Made by a program: the position numbers and the translations under genes
Shown: one piece after another, positions 30,095 to 42,097 of the stretch
Numbering within the stretch: the first letter of the stretch is position 1
How the letters are laid out: each line of letters opens with the position of its first letter
Notes under the pieces: model-generated
The model's input: only the letters and a program-made list of their open reading frames with translations
Databases searched by the model: none
Told to the model about the DNA's origin: nothing
DNA from: Natronolimnobius sp. AArcel1
GTDB taxonomy: Archaea; Halobacteriota; Halobacteria; Halobacteriales; Natrialbaceae
Reading direction: 5' to 3'
Assembly: GCF_011043775.1 (NCBI RefSeq)
Contig: NZ_JAAKXY010000005.1
Location: forward strand, 248,001 to 312,000
Length of the DNA stretch: 64,000 bases

Positions 30095-30247
30095 ATCGCA
30101 GGACGAGATGGCACCGACGCCCATTCAACGACATATAAATGGTAGCGATTATTTTGTTATCATAGACTCCGCATTGTCAGTGAACAAAACTACCACCTAT
30201 TGTTTCCATGTGTATTTTCACTGCGCAATATACTCTCCAACCGGTAC

Positions 30248-30256
30248 TTTTATAAT
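30248..30256 (+). promoter_or_regulatory. TATA-like box of the Ugp-type operon
   Basis: TTTTATAAT lies about 25-32 bases before the ATG at 30280 and overlaps the region of the longer alternative start at 30259. Its position predicts a nearly leaderless mRNA and supports the ATG at 30280. Confidence 0.55.
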
Positions 30257-30279
30257 CTATGTGTTCTAAACGGTTGTTT

Positions 30280-31665
30280 ATGTACGACAATCAATCGCGT
30301 AGAAATGTACTGAAAACCACGGGGGTTGTCACTGCAGCTGGACTCGCTGGCTGTATGGGCAACGGAAACGGGGATGCCGACGATGCTGAGGACATCGACG
30401 ACGACGTATTAACTGCTTGGCACGCAATGGGTGGCGGGTCGGGCGAACTGCTGGACGATATGGTCGAGCGCTTTGAGGGTGCCGACAGCGAATCGGAGTA
30501 CCAGGGAAGTTACGAAGATATCCTGAATAGTCTGTTCGGCGCAATTGAGGCCGACCAGATTCCCGACGTCGTGATGATTGACAGCCTGCACAACCAGCAG
30601 GTGCTCGATACAGAGGCGATGCAGTCCGCCGAAGGGCTACTGCCCGATGACTATCCAACCGACGACCTCGTCGAAACCGTCCAGGACTTCTTCCGCGTCG
30701 ACGGCGAGTTGTTCTCGATGCCGTTCAACAACTCGAACTGCATCCTCTACTACAACAGAGATGCGTACGAGGAGGCCGGCCTCGATCCCGACCAGCCCCC
30801 CGAAACACTTGAGGAGGTTAGAGAACACAGTGAAGCACTCGTCGATTCAGGTGCGGTTAACTACGGTATCACGTGGCCAAACCATGTCTGGTTCATTGAG
30901 ACCTGGTTCTCGCTGGCTAATGAACTCATTCTCGACAACGAAAACGGTCACGACGGTGCACCGACGACGATGCACACCGACACTGACTTCGCTGAGGATC
31001 TCTGGAGTTGGTGGCGTGACCTCTACGAGGATGATCTCTTCTTGAACCCCGGCATCGAAGCCTGGGACGAGGCACGAAACGCCTTCCTTGCAGAAGAAGT
31101 CGGAATCAAACTCGACTCGACGGCCGCAGTCGAAGCGACCGTTTCGGGTGCTGAGGGTGATATCGAAGATGAAGAGGACCTTGATGATGATGACGTCGAC
31201 GGGTTCGAACTCGGAACCGGCTTCTATCCCTCTCCAACTGAGGACCGAACGGGCGTCGTCATCGGTGGGGCGTCGCTGTTCATCAGCGGCGATATGGACG
31301 ACCAGCGCGAGGAGGAAGTCGGTGAACTGCTCGCCTACCTTGGTTCGGTGGAAAACCAGATTGAGTGGCACCAGGGAAGCGGTTATTACCCGATTCGCGA
31401 GGAAGCTATTGACGAACTTGAAGACGAGGGCTGGTTCGAGGACGAACCTCACTACGCAACGGCGTTCGATCAGTTGCTCGAGTCTGAGACGACGCCGGCA
31501 ACCCGCCGGATGCTCGTCGGCCCCGCTCGCGAGGTGCAGCTGACGGTCCAGGAAGAGTCCCAGGAAATCTTCTCCGGCAGCGTCAGCGTCGAGGACGGGC
31601 TCGCGAACATGAAAGAGAGTGTCGAAGAAGAGCTCGATCGTTACTCCCGAGTTGCAGGCGAGTAA
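30280..31665 (+). CDS. ugpB: ABC transporter substrate-binding lipoprotein (UgpB-like)
   Basis: A 461-residue extracytoplasmic binding protein. The Tat-type leader (QSRRNVLKTTGVVTAAG) ends in lipobox LAGC, so the mature protein is anchored by the Cys at about residue 25. The body is a family-1 binding protein: DVVMIDSLHNQQVLD, FFRVDGELFSMPFNNSNCIL, YYNRDAYEEAGLDP and a DYTY-type C-terminal helix region. The order binding protein, two permeases and ATPase, and the nearby GDPD genes, match glycerol-3-phosphate/glycerophosphodiester importers. A sugar substrate is the alternative. Confidence 0.85.
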   Translation: MYDNQSRRNVLKTTGVVTAAGLAGCMGNGNGDADDAEDIDDDVLTAWHAMGGGSGELLDDMVERFEGADSESEYQGSYEDILNSLFGAIEADQIPDVVMIDSLHNQQVLDTEAMQSAEGLLPDDYPTDDLVETVQDFFRVDGELFSMPFNNSNCILYYNRDAYEEAGLDPDQPPETLEEVREHSEALVDSGAVNYGITWPNHVWFIETWFSLANELILDNENGHDGAPTTMHTDTDFAEDLWSWWRDLYEDDLFLNPGIEAWDEARNAFLAEEVGIKLDSTAAVEATVSGAEGDIEDEEDLDDDDVDGFELGTGFYPSPTEDRTGVVIGGASLFISGDMDDQREEEVGELLAYLGSVENQIEWHQGSGYYPIREEAIDELEDEGWFEDEPHYATAFDQLLESETTPATRRMLVGPAREVQLTVQEESQEIFSGSVSVEDGLANMKESVEEELDRYSRVAGE

Positions 31666-31694: not shown

Positions 31695-32579
31695 ATGTCA
31701 AGAGAGATTTACAACCGCTCGTGGCTTGCCTACCTCCTGTTACTGCCGACGATCGTCGTCTCGGCCGTTTTCCTCTACTACCCGGCTGCACAGGCGGTCA
31801 ACCTCAGCCTATATGAGACCCTACAGTTCGGTACTCAACGGGTCTGGGCCGGCTTCGGCAACTACAGTTACTTGCTCACCTCGAGCGACTATCACAGCAG
31901 CATCGTCGTCACGATTGTATTCTCGTTGATCGTCATCATCGGTGTGATGGCCATCTCGCTGGTCGTCTCGTATCTGATCTATGAAGTGAACATCGGCACA
32001 TCGTCGTATCTGATTGCGGCGATCTGGCCGTACGCCCTGCCACCGGCAGTTGCAGGAATTGTCTTTTTCTACATCATCCATCCTAGCCTCGGCGTGCTTA
32101 CCCAACCAATTCAGGCTATCTTTGGCGTCAATATCGATTGGTTTACGCAGGGTGGGCAGGCGTTCATTGTGGTGACTGTTGCGGTCATTTGGAAGCAGAT
32201 TGGCTACAATGTCATCTTCATGATCGCCGCGCTCAACAACGTCCCTGATGCTCTCGGTGAGGTTGCCGATCTTGATGGCGTTGGTCGCTTCCAGCGGCTA
32301 GTACGGGTCTACATGCCGCTGATCTCGCCGACGCTCATCTTCCTCGTTGTGATGAACACGATCTATGCGTTCTTCCACACATTCGCGTTCATCGATATCC
32401 TCACTCAAGGCGGTCCAGGTGGGGCAACCAACATCATGATCTACGATCTGTATCGTAATGCGTTCGAATTCAACAACCATGGACTGGCGTCGGCACAGTC
32501 GGTCATCCTGTTCCTCGTCGTTGGCCTGCTGATGTTCGCGCAGTTGCGCCTGTCCGACAAATACGCACACTATGGGTGA
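31695..32579 (+). CDS. ugpA: ABC transporter permease (UgpA-like)
   Basis: A 294-residue permease with six spans and the ABC coupling motif (EA-loop) in DALGEVADLDGVGRFQRLVRVYMPLISP. The first span follows the short leader MSREIYNRSWLAYLLLLPTI. It starts 29 bases after the binding protein and ends 6 bases before the second permease. Family assignment follows MalF/UgpA proteins. Together with the next gene it forms the membrane pore. Confidence 0.88.
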   Translation: MSREIYNRSWLAYLLLLPTIVVSAVFLYYPAAQAVNLSLYETLQFGTQRVWAGFGNYSYLLTSSDYHSSIVVTIVFSLIVIIGVMAISLVVSYLIYEVNIGTSSYLIAAIWPYALPPAVAGIVFFYIIHPSLGVLTQPIQAIFGVNIDWFTQGGQAFIVVTVAVIWKQIGYNVIFMIAALNNVPDALGEVADLDGVGRFQRLVRVYMPLISPTLIFLVVMNTIYAFFHTFAFIDILTQGGPGGATNIMIYDLYRNAFEFNNHGLASAQSVILFLVVGLLMFAQLRLSDKYAHYG

Positions 32580-32585
32580 GAACAC

Positions 32586-33461
32586 GTGAGTACAGACACT
32601 CAATCCACGATCGACCGAGTCGCCGAATCGCTCGAAAAACCGACAACGGATCGAACCCAGTTGCTGGTCCACGTCGGACTCGGGGTTTCGGTGTTCTTGA
32701 TGGCGTTTCCGATTCTGATCGCGTTGCTCGTGAGCACGCAAGAACAGGGCGTCATCAACAGCGTGGGCGACCTCGCCCCGGGCAGTCACATGGTCGAGAA
32801 CTACGAAACGGTGATGACCGACTACAACTTCGGTGTCTACCTGCTGAACTCGTTTATCATGTCGATCATTATTGTCGTCGGCAAACTCGCAATCTCGCTT
32901 TTGGCGGCGCTCGCCATCGTCTACTATCGGTTCCCGTTCAAGAACCTGATGTTTATGTTGATCCTCTTTACGCTGATGCTGCCGGTGCCGGTCCGGTTCG
33001 TGCCGCTTTTCAACATCGTCACGGACTTAGGGTGGTACAACAGCATGCTCGCGCTCACTATCCCATATCTGGCGAGCGCGACCACCGTCTTCCTGTTGCG
33101 CCAGCACTTCCTCTCGATCCCCGCGTCGATCGTCGAGCAGGCAAAACTCGATGGGATCGGGCCGCTGAAGTTCCTCATCTACGTCCTGATACCGATGTCG
33201 AAGGGAATGCTCGCTGGCGTCTCCGTCATCATGTTCATCTACGCCTGGAACCAGTACCTCTGGCCGCTGGTTATCATTGATTCGCAGGCCCAGCAGGTCA
33301 CACAGGTCGGGATTACCCTCTTGCAGGGAGACATTCAGGCCGGCGAATTGCAGTGGTCCATTGTGATGGCAGGTGCCATCATCACGCTCATCCCGCCGCT
33401 GCTCGCACTGATCGCATTCCGAAAACCACTCCTCGAGACCTTCGGGGTCCAACAGAAGTGA
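32586..33461 (+). CDS. ugpE: ABC transporter permease (UgpE-like)
   Basis: A 291-residue permease with six spans and the EA-loop EQAKLDGIGPLKFLIYVLIPMSKG. It has the MalG/UgpE-type C-terminal ending (FRKPLLETFGVQQK). The start is GTG at 32586, six bases after the previous stop. It follows UgpA and precedes the ATPase by seven bases, so all are on one transcript. Confidence 0.88.
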   Translation: MSTDTQSTIDRVAESLEKPTTDRTQLLVHVGLGVSVFLMAFPILIALLVSTQEQGVINSVGDLAPGSHMVENYETVMTDYNFGVYLLNSFIMSIIIVVGKLAISLLAALAIVYYRFPFKNLMFMLILFTLMLPVPVRFVPLFNIVTDLGWYNSMLALTIPYLASATTVFLLRQHFLSIPASIVEQAKLDGIGPLKFLIYVLIPMSKGMLAGVSVIMFIYAWNQYLWPLVIIDSQAQQVTQVGITLLQGDIQAGELQWSIVMAGAIITLIPPLLALIAFRKPLLETFGVQQK

Positions 33462-33468
33462 GCTATCA

Positions 33469-34599
33469 ATGACTGATATTACACTCGACAACATTACGAA
33501 ACGGTTCGAAGATGTCACGGCGGTCGACTCGCTCGACTTAGAGATTGATGACGGCGAATTCCTCGTCCTCGTCGGCCCCTCGGGTTGTGGGAAGTCGACA
33601 ACGTTGCGGATGCTCGCCGGACTTGAAAGCGTTACTGACGGTGATATTCTCGCCAACAGCGAACCGATCACCGATCTAGTGCCAAAAAACCGCAACGTCG
33701 CGATGGTGTTCCAGAACTACGCGCTCTACCCACATATGTCGGCGAAGCGAAACATGACGTTCGGCATGAAGTCAGCAGGCAGCTACACTGACGAGGAGAT
33801 TGAAGACCTCGTCACCGAAGCGGCGGCGATCCTTGACATTGAGGATCTCCTTGAACGCAAGCCGAAAGCGCTCTCAGGTGGGGAACGTCAGCGTGTCGCG
33901 ATCGGCCGCGCGCTCGTCCGTGATCCGGATTATCTCCTGATGGACGAGCCACTGTCAAATCTCGACGCAAAGTTGCGAATCCAGATGCGCGCCGAGTTGA
34001 GCGAACTCCATGACGAACTCGAGACGACAACCATCTACGTCACACACGACCAGACCGAGGCCATGACGCTTGGCGATCGTGTTGCCGTAATGAACGCTGG
34101 GGAACTCCAGCAGGTCGCTCACCCACAGGAGTTGTACGATTATCCAGCCAACCGGTTCGTCGCTGAGTTCATTGGGAGTCCGGCGATGAACACACTACCG
34201 GTCGAAATCCGGAAAGACGGTGACGGCTACGTGGCAACCGGTACCGACGTTGACGTCCAGTTGCCACAGGCCGACGGTCTGGCCGATTTCGAAGGTGATC
34301 GTTTGCTCCTTGGCGTCCGGCCAGAGGACCTCCACGAGGACGCGGCTGATGCGGACACGTCAATCCAAGCAGAAGTCACCGTGACCGAACCTCTTGGCGA
34401 CACGACGTTGATTCACGGCGAGGTTGCCGGCACGATGGCGAAGTTCAAGGTCAGTGCTCGCTCATCGCTTCGACAGGGTGATATCGTCGAGTTCGGAGCC
34501 GACCTTGACCGACTCCACCTCTTTGACGACGAAACCGGAACGACGATCTACCACTCCGATCGATCACTCGAAACCGCTGAGAAACAGCTCTCGCAGTAA
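33469..34599 (+). CDS. ugpC: ABC transporter ATP-binding protein (UgpC/MalK type)
   Basis: A 376-residue ATPase with Walker A GPSGCGKST, Q-loop VFQNYALYPHMS, signature LSGGERQR, Walker B YLLMDEPLSNLD and H-loop YVTHDQTEAM, plus a C-terminal TOBE/regulatory domain (about 240-370). It powers the UgpAE permease. The C-terminal domain often binds regulators in MalK-type proteins. It is followed after 13 bases by an Orc1/Cdc6-like ATPase gene. Confidence 0.92.
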   Translation: MTDITLDNITKRFEDVTAVDSLDLEIDDGEFLVLVGPSGCGKSTTLRMLAGLESVTDGDILANSEPITDLVPKNRNVAMVFQNYALYPHMSAKRNMTFGMKSAGSYTDEEIEDLVTEAAAILDIEDLLERKPKALSGGERQRVAIGRALVRDPDYLLMDEPLSNLDAKLRIQMRAELSELHDELETTTIYVTHDQTEAMTLGDRVAVMNAGELQQVAHPQELYDYPANRFVAEFIGSPAMNTLPVEIRKDGDGYVATGTDVDVQLPQADGLADFEGDRLLLGVRPEDLHEDAADADTSIQAEVTVTEPLGDTTLIHGEVAGTMAKFKVSARSSLRQGDIVEFGADLDRLHLFDDETGTTIYHSDRSLETAEKQLSQ

Positions 34600-34612
34600 T
34601 CAACACGCAGGA

Positions 34613-35797
34613 ATGAAGATCGATACGCGTATCGACCGTCGGATCAGAAACGAAACATCTGATCTGATCGTCCGTGATCGAGCGGTTCTCGATCCGACAG
34701 CCTGTCGAACCGATGTTCAAGATCGCGGACGGTACGTTGAGCGTTTGCTCGACGCGATAGAGCCCGTGTTCTCGGGTTCGACCCCACCGACATTGTACGT
34801 ATGGGGACCGAAAGGGGCTGGGAAGACGACGCTCATGACTGCCATCACCGGACGGCTTAACACGCTCAATGGCGATGGCGGTACCACGATGCACACGACG
34901 ACGCGAACAGCCCACCGACAACTGCCGCGCGTCGCTTCCGTCGACCTTCGGCAGATATCGAGCGAGTTTACGTTCTATCGGCGGGCGTTGATGTCTTTGC
35001 TTGGTCCTGAGGCTGTGCCATCAAACGGCGTGAGTACGGACGCGCTCCGGGACCGACTCGGTAAACGGCTCACTGCTAAGCCATCGTTCATCGTGATTGA
35101 CCATATAGACGATACAATGGGCCCATCAATGGAGACGGTCACACAGTGGCTCTCCCAGATCAAAGGCGAACATCCGTGGATAGGAATTGGGCGCACGAAC
35201 CCGGACGAACTTTGCGTGGATGTCCCTCGGATGGTTAAGATTCCAGCTTACAGGACCCATACGCTCGTCGACATACTCAGTTCACGGACCGAAGCCGGAC
35301 TCGCGCCGGATGCTGTCACACGTGAGCAACTACATGTGATCGCTGATTGGGCCCATGGTGATGCCCACGACGCAATCTCGGCGCTGTTCTCGGCGTCGCT
35401 CCTTGCCGAGTCGGCGGGGCGCGATCAACTCTTGGAAGACGACATCAGCGACGGGACTGAGGCGGTTCCATACCCTTCCTCAGCGCTTCACCGAGTCTTC
35501 ACACTTGAGGAGAGCCGACAGGAACTGTTGTATCAGTATCTCTCACTTCCGGAATCCCAGCGACGATCTATCGGCGATACCGCGAGTACGCTGGCTGACG
35601 CCGACTCTGTCGATTTCAAACAATCGACTGTTAGACGAGTGTTGTACGAACTTGCCGACAACAGGGTTCTCCGACGGGTAGAACACCGAGATCCAGATCA
35701 CAGCTACGGTCGCGGACGGGGGCGGCCCCCGAGTCATGTCGAACCGACGTTTCCGCCGCTCGTCTTTCGGGCGCTCTACTCGAGAAATGGGGGTTGA
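34613..35797 (+). CDS. Orc1/Cdc6-like AAA ATPase, divergent
   Basis: A 394-residue AAA protein with an N-terminal ATPase domain and a C-terminal winged helix. Walker A is GPKGAGKT (65-72); the Walker B-like strand is SFIVIDHID (158-166), where the usual acidic pair DE is replaced by DH. Sensor-1 region is WIGIGRTN. The fold order (LLDAI.P, GPKGAGKT, ADWAHGDAHDAISAL as the lid, and a wHTH with STVRRVLYELADNRVL) is that of Orc1/Cdc6. It starts 13 bases after ugpC with GCAGGA upstream, so it probably shares the operon. No origin-like repeats are evident; a regulatory role rather than replication initiation is a guess. Confidence 0.8.
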   Translation: MKIDTRIDRRIRNETSDLIVRDRAVLDPTACRTDVQDRGRYVERLLDAIEPVFSGSTPPTLYVWGPKGAGKTTLMTAITGRLNTLNGDGGTTMHTTTRTAHRQLPRVASVDLRQISSEFTFYRRALMSLLGPEAVPSNGVSTDALRDRLGKRLTAKPSFIVIDHIDDTMGPSMETVTQWLSQIKGEHPWIGIGRTNPDELCVDVPRMVKIPAYRTHTLVDILSSRTEAGLAPDAVTREQLHVIADWAHGDAHDAISALFSASLLAESAGRDQLLEDDISDGTEAVPYPSSALHRVFTLEESRQELLYQYLSLPESQRRSIGDTASTLADADSVDFKQSTVRRVLYELADNRVLRRVEHRDPDHSYGRGRGRPPSHVEPTFPPLVFRALYSRNGG

Positions 35798-36062
35798 TAT
35801 CCTCCACACGATGTACGGCGCGGTTTCCTCGCCGTTGTGGGAGTTTCAGACTACTTGACACGGATTGCTGTAATGACTTACCGACACAACTGCAGTACGC
35901 GTCGAGGTTCCACCAGAAATGACTGACGGCAGTCCGTATGAGTGTCTCCAGAGGCAACATTCCGTCTCGGTTGACGGTACTCGGGTTTGTGCGCTGTTCG
36001 TTGGAACTGCTTCGAGGACTGTGCTGATCACAAATGAAACACACCCGAGAGCAGTGTATCCG

Positions 36063-37169
36063 TTAGTCGTCACTGCGGACCGGTTCAAGAGACTGGCCCA
36101 GTTCTACGGGTCGATTCTGGTCGGACGATTCGAATATTGAATCAACAACGCGTTGTACGGCGATGCCTTCGGTGACCGTATTCTGGCCAGGGTGTTTCCC
36201 GGCGCGAACGCCCTCGAGGAATACAGATTGTTCGATACGATGCGTATTTTGCTGAGCGATGTCGATGTCACTCTCGATGAGATGGTCGGTCCCGTCGGAG
36301 CTCGTGTCGTAGATCGTTAATTCCTGCTCAGAGCCGTCGAGGCCAGGGCGAACACGTGCCCCTGCTTTGGTTCCGCGGATGAGGAATTCGTCGTTCGGTG
36401 GCCGGTTCGCCGCCCAGGCAACTTCGAGCGAGATGGTACGGCCGTTCGCACACCGAATAAATGCACTCACCGAATCGTCAACATTGAAGCTGTCAGGCCC
36501 TGCATCATCTCCGTACATCTCGAGGTAGGTATAGTCCTCGCGACCGCCGAACTGTGAGCGTGTTGCACCGGAGACATCGACGACTTCGGGAAACTCCATG
36601 AAGTGCAGTGCGAGATCGATCGCGTGAATCCCCAGATCAATGAGTGCCCCACCGCCCGCGACTGATTTTGTGGTGAACCACGAGCCACGACCTGGAATGC
36701 CACGTCTCCGAACGTAGTTTGCTTCGATGTGTGTTATCTCACCTAGTGTTCCCCGATCCTGGTACGCTTTCGCGACAGTGACTGCGTTACTAAACCGGTT
36801 ATTGAACCCGACCATACAGAACCCATCAGCCGCGGCCGCAGCGTCTGCGATACGGCGGGCACTCTCGAGGGAATGGGCGAGGGGTTTCTCGAGAAGGACG
36901 TCGAGTCCTGCCTCGAGTGCGCCGACAGCGTACTCCTCGTGGAACCGGTTTGGTGTTGTCACGATGACTGCATCAACTACGTCGTAGAAGTCTGCAGGTG
37001 TTTCGAACGTTTCGACGCCGTATGCCTCACGAAACTCGTCGCGGGCAGTCTCGTCAATATCGAGTCCAGCAGTGAGGTTTGCACCGAGTTCTACAAGTTG
37101 GTCCGCATGGTGGCAGCCGATGTTGCCCAATCCAACGAGGCCGACTCGCGCTTGAGTAGGTGCGTTCAT
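36063..37169 (-). CDS. Gfo/Idh/MocA family oxidoreductase
   Basis: A 368-residue NAD(P)-dependent oxidoreductase. The N-terminal Rossmann motif is GLVGLGNIGCHHADQL, the catalytic Lys lies in LLEKPLAH (EKP motif), and the C-terminal domain has GGGALIDLGIHAIDLALHFM with the conserved Asp/His pair. Members oxidise sugars, inositols or sugar acids. It is on the same strand as the downstream-read Opp operon, but separated by about 330 bases. A role in converting the imported carbohydrate is likely by context. Confidence 0.88.
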   Translation of the reverse strand: MNAPTQARVGLVGLGNIGCHHADQLVELGANLTAGLDIDETARDEFREAYGVETFETPADFYDVVDAVIVTTPNRFHEEYAVGALEAGLDVLLEKPLAHSLESARRIADAAAAADGFCMVGFNNRFSNAVTVAKAYQDRGTLGEITHIEANYVRRRGIPGRGSWFTTKSVAGGGALIDLGIHAIDLALHFMEFPEVVDVSGATRSQFGGREDYTYLEMYGDDAGPDSFNVDDSVSAFIRCANGRTISLEVAWAANRPPNDEFLIRGTKAGARVRPGLDGSEQELTIYDTSSDGTDHLIESDIDIAQQNTHRIEQSVFLEGVRAGKHPGQNTVTEGIAVQRVVDSIFESSDQNRPVELGQSLEPVRSDD

Positions 37170-37501
37170 TCAATCCTCCGGCGCCCGTTCGAGTTTGTGA
37201 TCACGTTCGAATGCGACTTCGAGGATGCGTTCGTGGAGCGACCGACGGACTTTGCCATAATTTGTACACTGTGGTGGTAGTTTGTCTCTGTCATGGTATC
37301 TCTTGTATCAGTAAACAAGTCTGTAATTCACGATATAATATGTCGATGGCTACTATTTAGTCTTTCGGGCCAGTACCCTATTCCCAACCACCGTGTATAC
37401 TGATCATGGGGCTTCGCTTTGAGTTCCAGAGGTCGGTTTGGTTCAGGCTCGTGGCAATCCTGTCCGGTACACTTATGCAACGTTCAGTTCTTGCTTGGTG
37501 T

Positions 37502-37690
37502 ATGAAACGGTATTTGTTCTTTTTCTGCGTAGTACTCCTTGTACTGCTTGCGTTTAGCGCACCGTTTGTCGAACCGGGAAGCGGTGAATTCGTTGTCTTC
37601 GTGCTGAGCCTCGTGTTCATTGGTGCAACATTCATTGGAATTGCACTTCTCTCGCGTCTCGAATCGGATCCGTTTGACCGACTATTCTAG
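37502..37690 (+). CDS. Small two-span membrane protein, 62 residues
   Basis: The product starts MKRYLFFFCVVLLVLLAFSA and has two hydrophobic spans (about 4-22 and 31-50), with a polar C-terminus. ATG 37502 is preferred because a TATA-like ACTTATGC lies about 28 bases upstream. A longer frame to 37406 adds a basic stretch with no promoter support. It runs convergent with the Opp ATPase gene. I do not recognise a family. Confidence 0.5.
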   Translation: MKRYLFFFCVVLLVLLAFSAPFVEPGSGEFVVFVLSLVFIGATFIGIALLSRLESDPFDRLF

Positions 37691-37752
37691 CCGGCCTCAC
37701 AGCGAACACGGATCAAAATTGGACCGCACGACGCACCGCTTTTCAAGAGCGA

Positions 37753-38859
37753 TCAGTCGTCGGCTGTCCCCTCAGTATCCGTTACGTGATCAGCGTCGAG
37801 TTCATCATCAACGATTGAATCGCTCTCCCAGTAGTCGTGCTCTGGCTGCTGGCGGAAGCAACTCACCTGATGGTCAGTATCGTCGGCGACAAGTTCCGGA
37901 CGAGCGTTGCGACATGCCTCGCGGGCCTCCGGACAGCGAGTATGGAATCGACAGCCCGACGGCGGATTCACTGGATCCGGAATGTCAATGCTTCGAATCG
38001 GCGGAGACTCCGCCTCAGCAGTGCCATCCATGTCCGCAGTTGCCCACTTCAACACTTTCGTGTAGGGATGTTGCGGGTTGCCGATCACCTCTTCAGGCGT
38101 TCCGAGCTCGACGATTTCACCGAGGTACATCACTCCGATTCGTCCGCCGGACTGACCCGCAAGGTACCGCGCGTTCGAGAGGTTGTGAGATATAAATAGG
38201 AACGAAGTGCCAAACTGTTCCTGGAGTTCGAGCATGAGATCCATCATCTCGACGCGCAGGGAGACATCGAGTGCTGAGACGGCCTCGTCGGCCAGAATCA
38301 GGTCGGGATTCATAAACAGCGCTCGAATCAACGCACAGCGCTGTTTTTCTCCGCCAGAGAGTTGATGTGGATATCGCTGGGCATAATCCTCTGGTGGTGT
38401 CATCCCAACGTGCTCGAGCATACCAATCACTCGATCTCGGCGGTCATTCGCGTTCAGGTCATCCCGCCATCGTTTGAGTGGTGCCTCGAGACTAGCGAGG
38501 ATTGGGCGGTTCGGGTTGAGTGATGCGCCAGGGTCTTGATGAATAATCTGGAGCGATTTTCGAATCTCGTCCCACGAAATGTCCGGGTCACGTCCGTCTT
38601 TCGCGGCCCAGACATCTTGCCCACGGTAACTGACCGTTCCACCAGTCGGACGTTGTAGCGCAATTGCAGTCTTGCCGAGAGTAGTTTTTCCGCACCCGGA
38701 CTCTCCGACCAGTGCAACGACGTCGTTCTCTTCAATCTCGAGGTCGACGCCGTCAACGGCGCTGACGGAGTCTGGCTCGGATCGACTTAGCAGTCCAGCG
38801 TTCCCCTTCTCGAAGTGAACATCCACGTTCGAGAGGGTAACGACTGGCTCCTCATGCAT
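37753..38859 (-). CDS. oppF: Oligopeptide-type ABC transporter ATP-binding protein (OppF-like)
   Basis: A 368-residue ATPase with Walker A GESGCGKT, signature LSGGEKQRCALIRAL, Walker B LILADEAVSALD (degenerate Glu position kept), H-loop FISHNLS and the C-terminal Fe-S/oligopeptide domain with Cys-rich CRFHTRCPEAREACRNA. The ATG at 38859 (MHEEPVV) overlaps the preceding oppD stop by eight bases. The long upstream frame is not needed. With OppD it energises the permease pair. Confidence 0.88.
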   Translation of the reverse strand: MHEEPVVTLSNVDVHFEKGNAGLLSRSEPDSVSAVDGVDLEIEENDVVALVGESGCGKTTLGKTAIALQRPTGGTVSYRGQDVWAAKDGRDPDISWDEIRKSLQIIHQDPGASLNPNRPILASLEAPLKRWRDDLNANDRRDRVIGMLEHVGMTPPEDYAQRYPHQLSGGEKQRCALIRALFMNPDLILADEAVSALDVSLRVEMMDLMLELQEQFGTSFLFISHNLSNARYLAGQSGGRIGVMYLGEIVELGTPEEVIGNPQHPYTKVLKWATADMDGTAEAESPPIRSIDIPDPVNPPSGCRFHTRCPEAREACRNARPELVADDTDHQVSCFRQQPEHDYWESDSIVDDELDADHVTDTEGTADD

Positions 38860-39925
38860 CGGTCTCACCTCCGCGCTCAGTGTCACCGGTGTCAAACGGG
38901 AGTGCATCGGTTGCATCTTCCCAGTGGTGGCAGGCAACGCGGTGACCGTTGCTGTCGATTGCATCGAGGGGCGGATCGTCAGACTCACAGGTTACATCCG
39001 ACAGTGGGCATCGCGGGTGATACGAACACCCCTCCGGAATGTTCACTGGGTCAGGGCTCGAGCCCTCGATCGGCCGCATTTCGTCGAGATCAATCTCGAG
39101 GTTGGGGACGGCTTTTAGCAACGCTCGAGTATAGGGGTGATCAGGGTCGTCGATTGTCTCGGCCGGTCCAACTTCGACGAACTCAAAGGCATAGAGGACG
39201 GCGAGTCGATCGGCCAGTCCAGCTACCAGCGGCAAGTCGTGCGTGATGAAGACGATGGTCAACGCGTACTTCGACTGCAGGTCACGCAGCAAGCTAAGGA
39301 TCGACCGTTGCATCAAGAGGTCGAGTGCGGCGGTTGGTTCGTCCATCACGAGCACATCTGGCTCGAGAACGAGGCTGAGTGCGATCAACGCCCGCTGTTT
39401 CATGCCACCGGAGAGTTCGTGTGGATACGACTCGAGGATTCGGTCGGGGTCAAGGTAGACATCGGCAAGGAGTTCGCGCGCACGTTCCATCCCTGCCTCC
39501 ACATCTGCATTGTGAGCTTCGAGCGTTTCGACGAAGTGGCCGCCGACTGCCATCGTCGGGTTGAACGAGTTCAATGCCCCTTGGAACACCATTGAAATCT
39601 CTTCCCAGCGGACGTCTCGAAGTGCCGATCCCTCGAGTTCGAGGATGTCGATCACGTCGCCGTCGGCAGTGTGGTAGTCGATCTGTCCGCTGGCGACGCC
39701 AGGATCGACAACGGCGTTGAGGAGTGAGTCTGCGAACATCGATTTTCCGCTGCCGGATTCCCCGACGATGCCGAGGATTTCCTCACGATGCACGTCGATA
39801 TCAACGTCGTTGAGGACGTGTGAAACGCCTCGGTCCATCCCGAACGTTACCGAGAGGTTTCGCGCCTCGATAATGACGTCGGTTTCCTGTTCGTCAGGTG
39901 TGGCAATTGTTTCTGTCGCTGTCAT
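38852..39925 (-). CDS. oppD: Oligopeptide-type ABC transporter ATP-binding protein (OppD-like)
   Basis: A 357-residue ATPase: Walker A GESGSGKSM, Q-loop MVFQGALNSFNP, signature LSGGMKQRALIALSL, Walker B VLVMDEPTAALD and H-loop FITHDLPLV. The C-terminal region has the OppD Cys motif CSYHPRCPLSDVTC. The ATG at 39925 overlaps the oppC stop by four bases. Confidence 0.9.
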   Translation of the reverse strand: MTATETIATPDEQETDVIIEARNLSVTFGMDRGVSHVLNDVDIDVHREEILGIVGESGSGKSMFADSLLNAVVDPGVASGQIDYHTADGDVIDILELEGSALRDVRWEEISMVFQGALNSFNPTMAVGGHFVETLEAHNADVEAGMERARELLADVYLDPDRILESYPHELSGGMKQRALIALSLVLEPDVLVMDEPTAALDLLMQRSILSLLRDLQSKYALTIVFITHDLPLVAGLADRLAVLYAFEFVEVGPAETIDDPDHPYTRALLKAVPNLEIDLDEMRPIEGSSPDPVNIPEGCSYHPRCPLSDVTCESDDPPLDAIDSNGHRVACHHWEDATDALPFDTGDTERGGETDA

Positions 39926-41097
39926 AGTCCTTTGTTCACTGACATAGAGTCTGTTTCTGCGTCGCTATCGCTTGTGCTACTTCCACCAGCATCGTGATTT
40001 GTCTTCATGTGTTTCGCTCGAACTCGTGGGTTGAAGACACGATCGAGTGCTTGAGAGAGCAATAACAGTGCGAACGACAGCAAGATGATCGCGATCATTG
40101 GGACGATCAGCCAGTGGGCTGCATCCCACGAGTGCATCGCACCGCCGGTACTGTAGGCTCTGTTCAATGTCAGCCCCCAGTTCGCACCGGTCACCGGGAG
40201 AACGCCGAGGAAGTACAGTCCAACGGACGCGTAGATAACACCGCGAGCGTGGCCGACCATACTAACGAGAATATACGGCATCAGGTTCGGCGTCACGTCT
40301 TTGAGCATAATCGTCCGTCTCGAGATCCCCATCGTTCGGGAGGCTTCCACATACTCGACGTCCCGCAGCGTAAGCACCTGCGAGCGGATCGAGCGGGCGA
40401 GGCCTGCCCAGGCTGTCAGCGACAGCAAGACGCCGATTGTCACTGGATGGGATGGTTCAACGGCGGCCGCGAGAACGATCAACAACGGGAGACCGGGGAT
40501 CGTCATCGCGATGTCGGATACGGTCATCAACGCCTGGTCAACGTTTCCGCCGATGTAGCCCGAACCGACGCCGACGATCGTCGCGACGGTCGTCGCGAAG
40601 ACCGCCCCTGCGGTGATCATAATCAACATCATCGGTGTCGCGTGGACTGTCAACGAGACGATATCCTGTCCGTTCCCGTCGGTTCCAAGCGGATGCTCGA
40701 GTGTCTCAAAGGGGCCAAGCAGGTTTGGTCCCTGATTGACCTGTGGAGCGTCGACGAGGACAACCCCAGCTGTCGCCATCAGTACGTACCCGAGTAACAG
40801 AGCCAGTCCAACGAGTGCCCGCCAGTCTTGCCGAAGCACACGCGCGGGTGATGCGATCCAGCGATCGTAGATCACTTTTGCCCGCTCCTGTCTACTCATC
40901 GTCGTTCCGCTTGCACTCGAGAAGGCAGCGATTGGTGACTCCGTTCTCCCACCATCAGGAAGTGGACGATCGGCATCGGACTCGGTCGTGCTCGCTGAAT
41001 CGTCACCGAGCAGATGCTCGAGATCACCGGTGGCTTCTCGATTGCTCGAGTCGTCTGTCTGTGGTTGTGATTGTCCGTTCTGGTCAGTAGGTTTCAC
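39922..41097 (-). CDS. oppC: Oligopeptide-type ABC transporter permease (OppC-like)
   Basis: A permease of about 391 residues with a long, polar, acidic N-terminal tail (about 85 residues), then the OppC core with FETLEHPLGTDGNGQDIVS, GVGSGYIGG and the EA-loop EYVEASRTMGISRRTIMLKD. GTG at 41097 is preferred, since GGAGGTGA lies five bases upstream; other in-frame GTGs at 41106 and 41121 are possible. It overlaps the OppB end by about 14 bases. Confidence 0.87.
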   Translation of the reverse strand: MKPTDQNGQSQPQTDDSSNREATGDLEHLLGDDSASTTESDADRPLPDGGRTESPIAAFSSASGTTMSRQERAKVIYDRWIASPARVLRQDWRALVGLALLLGYVLMATAGVVLVDAPQVNQGPNLLGPFETLEHPLGTDGNGQDIVSLTVHATPMMLIMITAGAVFATTVATIVGVGSGYIGGNVDQALMTVSDIAMTIPGLPLLIVLAAAVEPSHPVTIGVLLSLTAWAGLARSIRSQVLTLRDVEYVEASRTMGISRRTIMLKDVTPNLMPYILVSMVGHARGVIYASVGLYFLGVLPVTGANWGLTLNRAYSTGGAMHSWDAAHWLIVPMIAIILLSFALLLLSQALDRVFNPRVRAKHMKTNHDAGGSSTSDSDAETDSMSVNKGL

Positions 41098-42097
41098 TGT
41101 CCTCACCTCCGCTTTCTGCACGTGGATCTATCTTGCCGTAGGTCAGGTCGGCAATGAACACGGCGATGACGACGCCGAGGGTGATGATGAGGAACGCACC
41201 CATCATTACTGGGTAGTCGCCGCGTTCGATCGCTTGGAACATGTAGTAGCCGACGCCGGGATAGGCGAAGATTTCCTCGATAATGATCGAGCCGCCGAAG
41301 ACGAAGCCGAACGCAATCATCAGGCCGGTGTACATCGGCAAGATTGCATTGCGAGCGACGTATCGCAGGGCGATTCGACGTTCGGAAAGGCCCCGGAGTC
41401 GAGCAACGCGCATGTAGTCTTCGCCCAAGACCTGAATGCTGTTGCCTCGCATCGACAGTGCAACGCCGCCGAATCCGGTGATCACAATCGAAATGATCGG
41501 GAGTGCTCCGTGGTGGAGCACGCTTCCGAGGTACTCGGGGCTGAAACCGGCGGCGATGTCGTAGTTGACTCGTCCACGTGTTGGGAAGAGCTCAAACCCG
41601 TAGCCGAGGAAATACACGAGTAACAACGCGGCGATGTAGTTTGGCGTCGAATTGAGTAGCAGCGAGATGACGGTCGATCCGACGTCGAAGCGACTGCCTT
41701 CCCAGTAGGCCATCACCGAACCGAGCGCAACTCCGATCAGGAACATGAGGAACGTTGCAACGGACATATAAAACACCGTCCAGGGCAACGCCGGAAAGAG
41801 TACGTCGGCAACAGGCTGGCTGAGCCACATGGATTCTCCCAGATCCGCTTGCAGGAGACTCACCATGTACTCGACGTACTGTTGCCAGAGCGGTTCCTCT
41901 GGGTTGACGTTCGTGTAAGCCTCGACGAGGTTGTTGATCTGTTCCTGGTCGATGTCGCCGGATTGCTCCTGGCGAAGTTGTGTCCGAAGGTGATCGACCG
42001 GACCGCCTGGTAAATACCGGATCAGTACGAACGACAGCGTCATCACTGCGAACACAGTGAACAACGCTTGGATTGTTCGCTTTGCGTAGTAATGCAT
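41084..42097 (-). CDS. oppB: Oligopeptide-type ABC transporter permease (OppB-like)
   Basis: A 337-residue permease with six spans, the first starting MHYYAKRTIQALFTVFAVMT. OppB landmarks are LIRYLPGGPVDHL, then QPVADVLFPALPWTV and the EA-loop EDYMRVARLRGLSERRIALR. It lies 21 bases after the substrate-binding protein gene on the same strand and heads the permease pair. Confidence 0.9.
   Translation of the reverse strand: MHYYAKRTIQALFTVFAVMTLSFVLIRYLPGGPVDHLRTQLRQEQSGDIDQEQINNLVEAYTNVNPEEPLWQQYVEYMVSLLQADLGESMWLSQPVADVLFPALPWTVFYMSVATFLMFLIGVALGSVMAYWEGSRFDVGSTVISLLLNSTPNYIAALLLVYFLGYGFELFPTRGRVNYDIAAGFSPEYLGSVLHHGALPIISIVITGFGGVALSMRGNSIQVLGEDYMRVARLRGLSERRIALRYVARNAILPMYTGLMIAFGFVFGGSIIIEEIFAYPGVGYYMFQAIERGDYPVMMGAFLIITLGVVIAVFIADLTYGKIDPRAESGGEDSETY

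Follow-up and report, generated by a model that had tools for sequence, protein, structure and literature searches.

Glycerol ranks among the main sources of carbon in hypersaline water. A 2025 paper describes the way in which haloarchaea turn on its metabolism as not fully understood (PMC12853182). Local control of glycerol and glycerol-3-phosphate (G3P) genes is the province of GlpR, a DeoR-family regulator of Bacteria and haloarchaea; in haloarchaea, its reported targets are genes for fructose and glucose (PMC12853182). The archaeal sugar regulators of the TrmB family are metabolite-responsive, and recognize a partly palindromic operator set relative to the TATA box (PMC10817205).

The closest described system is Orc1-2 of Sulfolobus islandicus, a non-initiator Orc that regulates transcription in the DNA-damage response (PMC9738581). 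Orc-derived regulators are therefore already known as a kind. Orc1-2 has intact Walker A and Walker B motifs, binds a 6-bp motif, and is on when ATP is bound and off after hydrolysis. Its Walker B mutation E154A was unobtainable alone, being lethal unless DNA binding was lost (PMC9738581). Other Orc genes are not linked to origins: a review lists 12 in Haloferax volcanii, and such "orphan" genes are considered dormant (PMC7776575).

Here we describe a family of haloarchaeal Orc-like proteins, one of which is encoded beside a Ugp transport operon in the window, a 64,000-nucleotide stretch of the Natronolimnobius sp. AArcel1 genome. Like Orc1-2, these proteins have an Orc1/Cdc6-type AAA+ body and a winged helix, appear not to be initiators, and are predicted to act at promoters. 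Unlike Orc1-2, they always carry His in place of the Walker B Glu, have lost the sensor-2 Arg and the Arg-finger loop, and have as predicted site a 29-bp inverted repeat that would serve one metabolic pathway. They share domain order and full-length fold with canonical archaeal Orc1/Cdc6 proteins (TIGR02928; structures 2v1u and 2qby). If our proposal is correct, they also resemble GlpR, an unrelated protein, in the pathway that they control. TrmB proteins have another fold and another site, and Pfam and NCBIfam searches found no sequence relationship between them and the Orc-like protein.

Our literature search, which took in few of the subscription journals, found nothing published on regulation by this family, on its operator, or on a role in glycerol metabolism. 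The family would provide a candidate regulator, with its DNA site and targets, for glycerol metabolism in most haloarchaea. It would also assign a function to one class of the orphan Orc genes thought dormant (PMC7776575). We propose that the body of a replication initiator has been reused as a pathway-specific switch that works without ATP hydrolysis.

An Orc-like protein with altered catalytic residues

The ugp-linked gene starts 13 nt past the ugpC stop (34599), as the original prediction stated. Among the proteins of the operon, UgpC alone exceeds its curated NCBIfam cut-off; UgpB, UgpA and UgpE score below theirs. The Orc-like protein matches TIGR02928 over its full length (83.5 bits, E 1.3e-23) and misses the cut-off of 181.3 bits, as does the glpC-linked paralogue in the same genome. 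An AAA+, Cdc6 lid and winged-helix architecture is indicated by a Pfam Cdc6_lid match (4.5e-9) and by an AlphaFold2 model built from 52 relatives (pLDDT 90, pTM 0.87), which resembles the Aeropyrum pernix Orc1-DNA structure 2v1u over its full length (E 2.8e-17) and 2qby end to end. Pfam and NCBIfam searches of the protein found neither the helix-turn-helix nor the sensor domain of DeoR regulators.

Features of the ugp locus, in window coordinates
Feature	Position	Strand	Remarks
Distal TATA box, TATAAA	30134..30139	+	16 nt 5' of the predicted operator; geometry resembles glpK promoters
Predicted operator, GTTAT-N19-GTGAA	30156..30184	.	Half-sites 30156-30160 and 30180-30184; p=0.001 vs shuffles
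Proximal TATA-like site	30251..30255	+	About 27 nt 5' of the probable UgpB ATG at 30280
UgpB-like solute-binding protein	30280..31665	+	Frame open from 30259; ATG at 30280 likelier
UgpA-like permease	31695..32579	+	Best NCBIfam match
UgpE-like permease	32586..33461	+	Best NCBIfam match
UgpC ATP-binding subunit	33469..34599	+	NCBIfam 447 bits, above the cut-off of 432
Orc1/Cdc6-derived pseudo-ATPase, candidate regulator, ugp-linked subclade	34613..35797	+	394 aa, ATG to TGA
Walker A, GPKGAGKTT	34805..34831	+	Intact in the ugp-linked protein
Walker B, VIDHID	35093..35110	+	Residues 161-166; catalytic Glu to His, invariant across the family
Sensor 2, GDAH	35357..35368	+	GDAR in canonical proteins
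C-terminal winged-helix domain	35486..35794	+	Conserved G-R-x-P wing (GRGRPPS); predicted DNA-binding part

The Walker B motif had been read as DH rather than DE, and this reading is confirmed. We aligned 62 family members with 36 canonical Orcs. DH occurs in 62/62 family members and DE in 36/36 canonical proteins, a difference far beyond chance, which makes DH a family signature and not a mutation of a single gene. Two further elements are lost. At sensor 2, the Arg of the GxAR motif, present in all 36 canonical proteins, occurs in 0/62 family members and is replaced by His in 60. Between sensor 1 and the lid, where Orcs have their Arg finger, family members mostly have 14-22 residues (26 in one case) vs 25-27 in the canonical proteins, all 36 of which have the full loop. 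The Walker A Lys is kept in 45/62 members; the other 17, which carry Thr (GxxGxGTS), make up the glpC-linked subclade (e.g., L040:7761-8909). New residues have become fixed in the family: D163-H164 is invariant and H252 nearly so. The winged helix keeps its G-R-x-P wing.

AAA+ proteins altered in this way are predicted to bind nucleotide at most, and not to hydrolyze it. With the Walker B Glu, the sensor-2 Arg and the Arg-finger loop lost, the same is predicted for the Orc-like family. The residues thus support the earlier suggestion that ATP hydrolysis may be impaired. That suggestion named Walker B alone; this part stands, and was incomplete in leaving out the changes at sensor 2 and in the Arg-finger loop, as well as the loss of the Walker A Lys in one subclade. 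With the ATP site degenerate, hydrolysis of ATP does not seem to be what switches these proteins, in contrast to Sulfolobus Orc1-2.

Some members have extra residues in the middle of the protein. In genomes G044-G047 and G076 (loci L158 and L159 among them), the gene is one open frame encoding 462-626 aa, and the matches split near residue 200.

Distribution, gene linkage and phylogeny of the family

Orc-like family members are widespread among haloarchaea and are mainly found at glycerol genes. We detected a member in 102/125 genomes of the host's family and in 297/391 genomes of the class. The host genome itself has a second copy, 37% identical, directly 3' of glpC in glpABC, the operon for anaerobic glycerol-3-phosphate dehydrogenase. 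Among 60 fetched family loci, 51 lie at glp genes, five directly 3' of ugpC and four elsewhere. The typical glp arrangements are glpABC-orc and glpK-X-orc, the latter adjoining glpK with glpABC divergent. The same linkage is seen in 74 of 80 family loci from named organisms (Halorubrum, Haloarcula, Halococcus, Haloferax gibbonsii and others), which were retrieved with the family alignment as query; a single-protein query gave none. Across the 391 genomes, the family and GlpK occur together in 294, GlpK alone in 45, and neither in 49. Three genomes (G174, G215 and G353) have the family and no full GlpK; G353 has a partial one.

In H. gibbonsii (L297), glpK is followed by a gene for a 359-aa protein and then by the Orc-like gene, with gaps of 2 and 47 bases. 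The intervening protein (L297:4874-5953) has no Pfam match and appears to be membrane-embedded. A 695-aa protein encoded 3' of another Orc-like gene (L040:5547-7634) likewise has no Pfam match. Three family members adjoin ABC transporters of the phosphonate-binding type (L065:7688-8806, L067:7422-8540 and L099:6763-7926). The last also adjoins a glpK paralogue and a binding protein of the sugar/G3P type, which widens the organophosphate theme.

The Orc-like family is phylogenetically distinct from canonical Orc1/Cdc6. We built a tree from the family and 23 canonical Orcs, taken from the host genome and from further genomes of its order and phylum. A single branch (SH-aLRT 100, length about 1) has the family as one of its sides, with the ugp-linked protein inside a ugp-linked subclade. 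Taken with the gene linkage, this comparison indicates that the family is old, monophyletic and haloarchaea-wide, with the glpABC/glpK cluster as its main home and the ugp copy as a second subclade. The original prediction had tied a special event to the Ugp operon. This is not so, as both DH and the predicted regulatory role are traits of the haloarchaea-wide family.

The full-length Orc1/Cdc6 fold could be taken to mean that the protein truly initiates replication, or licenses origins, and sits in a transport operon by chance. We regard this as extremely improbable. A long stem branch sets the protein apart from the canonical clade, its catalytic, sensor-2 and Arg-finger positions are gone, and it scores below the TIGR02928 cut-off, which about 10 intact canonical Orcs of the same genome exceed. 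We found no origin-type repeat arrays at 34300-37300, the region flanking the gene; several canonical orc loci of this genome have arrays with 5-7 copies. The phylogeny and origin-repeat checks suggested with the original prediction thus both favor its idea of a move from replication to regulation.

The loss of several catalytic residues would also be expected of a decaying, functionless orphan Orc, as proposed for the unlinked Orc genes of H. volcanii (PMC7776575). Decay is hardly credible for a single clade that is retained in 297/391 genomes with new invariant or near-invariant residues, open frames, conserved operon positions and co-evolving operators.

An inverted repeat at glp and ugp promoters

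Genomes with the Orc-like gene share an inverted repeat at the glpK promoter. In all haloarchaeal families sampled, glpK promoters of these gene-plus genomes have a TATA box followed by TTTAC-N19-GTAAA. The spacing is 19 in 48/48 matches, in a search that allowed 12-22. A weight matrix, cross-validated by training on half of the taxa and running on the other half, finds the repeat in 58/66 gene-plus promoters and in 0/39 promoters from gene-minus genomes, which keep glpK and lack the Orc-like gene (Fisher 3e-21, ignoring ancestry). A relaxed pattern gives 59/66 gene-plus promoters (7 lacking it), 67/70 in the named set, 0/39 gene-minus promoters, and 2% in shuffled sequence. At glpA the repeat recurs, again with a spacing of 19, in 40/55 and 18/26 gene-plus promoters (15 of the 55 lacking it) and in 0/20 gene-minus promoters.

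The repeat changes symmetrically. A strict pattern misses it at glpK in Halorubrum, where an alignment of leaders exposes two altered half-sites: 28 promoters have TTCAC/GTGAA and two have the intermediate TTCAC/GTAAA, with unchanged spacing. Joint alteration of the half-sites fits a symmetric protein site. We also considered an RNA element as an explanation for the conserved leader of glpK. A DNA operator is preferred because the spacing is fixed at 19 bp, glpA and ugpB have copies too, and the Halorubrum half-sites changed symmetrically. An Rfam search gave no match. A kinship of the half-sites with origin boxes, which in this genome contain TTTCACCGGAAAC, was likewise set aside, the resemblance being too weak to claim. 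About 40-60 nt 5' of glpK, some leaders (e.g., L072, L156 and L052) have a predicted hairpin that encloses the right half-site. Its arms vary and stay complementary (mean stem 6.0 vs 4.5 with arms swapped between genomes), so glpK possibly has a structured 5' leader besides the DNA operator.

Gene and repeat appear to be lost together. Eight genera are represented by both gene-plus and gene-minus genomes in the set of fetched promoters; seven agree with the association (g15, g17, g40, g44, g49, g52 and g66), g50 is uninformative, and none opposes it. A short GlpK tree gives, at well-supported branches, five independent pairs, about four agreeing and none opposing, which are too few for significance. 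Joint loss could stem from replacement of the whole glp cluster. In genome G396 (L100), a frameshifted Orc-like gene stands beside glpK with a weakened operator, gene and site apparently decaying together.

The same repeat is found at the ugp operon. In the ugpB promoters of ugp-linked copies it is significant in 4/5 cases (p 0.0005-0.0055 each), with identical spacing of 19 in L042, L046 and L048; the L044 promoter has a spacing of 20 and is not significant. The window's own copy is a weak version of the family repeat. It lies within 30095-30279, the region that had been named as the target promoter, a choice that this predicted operator supports. The exact core GTTTAY-N19-RTAAA occurs three times in the 4.56 Mb of the host genome, including once at glpK, against two in the control. 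This count is near chance, so flanking bases must contribute to specificity.

We consider it very likely that the repeat is the operator of the Orc-like regulator. The repeat might instead belong to another regulator, with the Orc-like protein linked to glp genes in some other capacity, such as an enzyme-associated or signalling role. Binding of the protein to the repeat is a prediction, and haloarchaea do have the sugar regulators TrmB, GfcR and GlpR (PMC12853182, PMC10817205). This alternative is improbable given that the repeat is absent from all 39 glpK promoters where the Orc-like gene is missing, that the ugp copies are accompanied by this repeat at another operon, and that the fetched loci, with Pfam searches, revealed no other predicted DNA-binding protein recurring in all cluster types.

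At the glycerol-inducible gpdA1 and glpK promoters of Haloferax, a shared inverted repeat was reportedly described by Rawls et al. (2011, J Bacteriol 193:4469). If so, the operator is partly known and the protein alone is new.

Proposed mechanism of regulation

The Orc-like proteins are probably dedicated transcription regulators of G3P uptake and breakdown that derive from Orc1/Cdc6 and work without ATP hydrolysis. The ugp-linked protein would be a sequence-specific regulator of ugpBAEC, and its sister paralogue of glpK and glpABC. Each would keep the AAA+-lid-winged-helix body without the residues that serve ATP hydrolysis and ATP-driven assembly. A dimer would hold a TTTAC and a GTAAA half-site with exactly 19 bp between them. 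Bound just 3' of the TATA box, on the expected start, it would block transcription at glpK and at the distal ugpB promoter; at glpA it would do so with the right half-site over an A/T-rich, TATA-like stretch. A pathway metabolite would then free the repressor. As the Orc-like gene is inside an operon under its own control, the loop would be self-limiting.

Repression is the mode that we favor, with fair confidence, because the glpK repeat lies just 3' of TATA and over the expected start. It occupies the interval between TATA and about +25, at a fixed distance even in very distant genomes. Archaeal regulators bound 3' of TATA inhibit polymerase recruitment, and TrmB systems repress in this way (PMC10817205). 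A non-initiator Orc that regulates transcription has a precedent in S. islandicus Orc1-2 (PMC9738581).

The same regulator might instead be an activator that binds when glycerol or G3P is present and brings in the basal transcription machinery. Activation of repair genes at high level is described for Sulfolobus Orc1-2 (PMC9738581), and the activation of glycerol metabolism in Haloferax is described as incompletely understood (PMC12853182). Furthermore, the glpA repeat begins 5' of the TATA-like stretch, which its right half overlaps, and a second TATA-like site near the ugpB start codon would let the repeat act from upstream. We nonetheless think activation unlikely, as a site in the position of the glpK repeat usually blocks RNA polymerase (PMC10817205).

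For the proposed repressor, G3P is the simplest ligand, since it is made by glpK, consumed by glpABC and imported by ugp; we name it tentatively. Rather doubtful is the further idea that the ATP pocket itself has turned into a G3P sensor, in which the P-loop, His164, His252 and an Arg/Gln by sensor 1 would hold the phosphate of G3P and not ATP. If this were true, a replication initiator would have become a one-component metabolite-sensing repressor. In one subclade even the P-loop Lys is gone.

The ugpB gene may have two promoters. The proximal TATA-like site, with the ATG at 30280, suggests a possible leaderless transcript in addition to that from the distal TATA box. Beside the Ugp operon, the minus strand at 36063-42097 carries a gene for an oxidoreductase and an operon for an ABC transporter of the peptide type.
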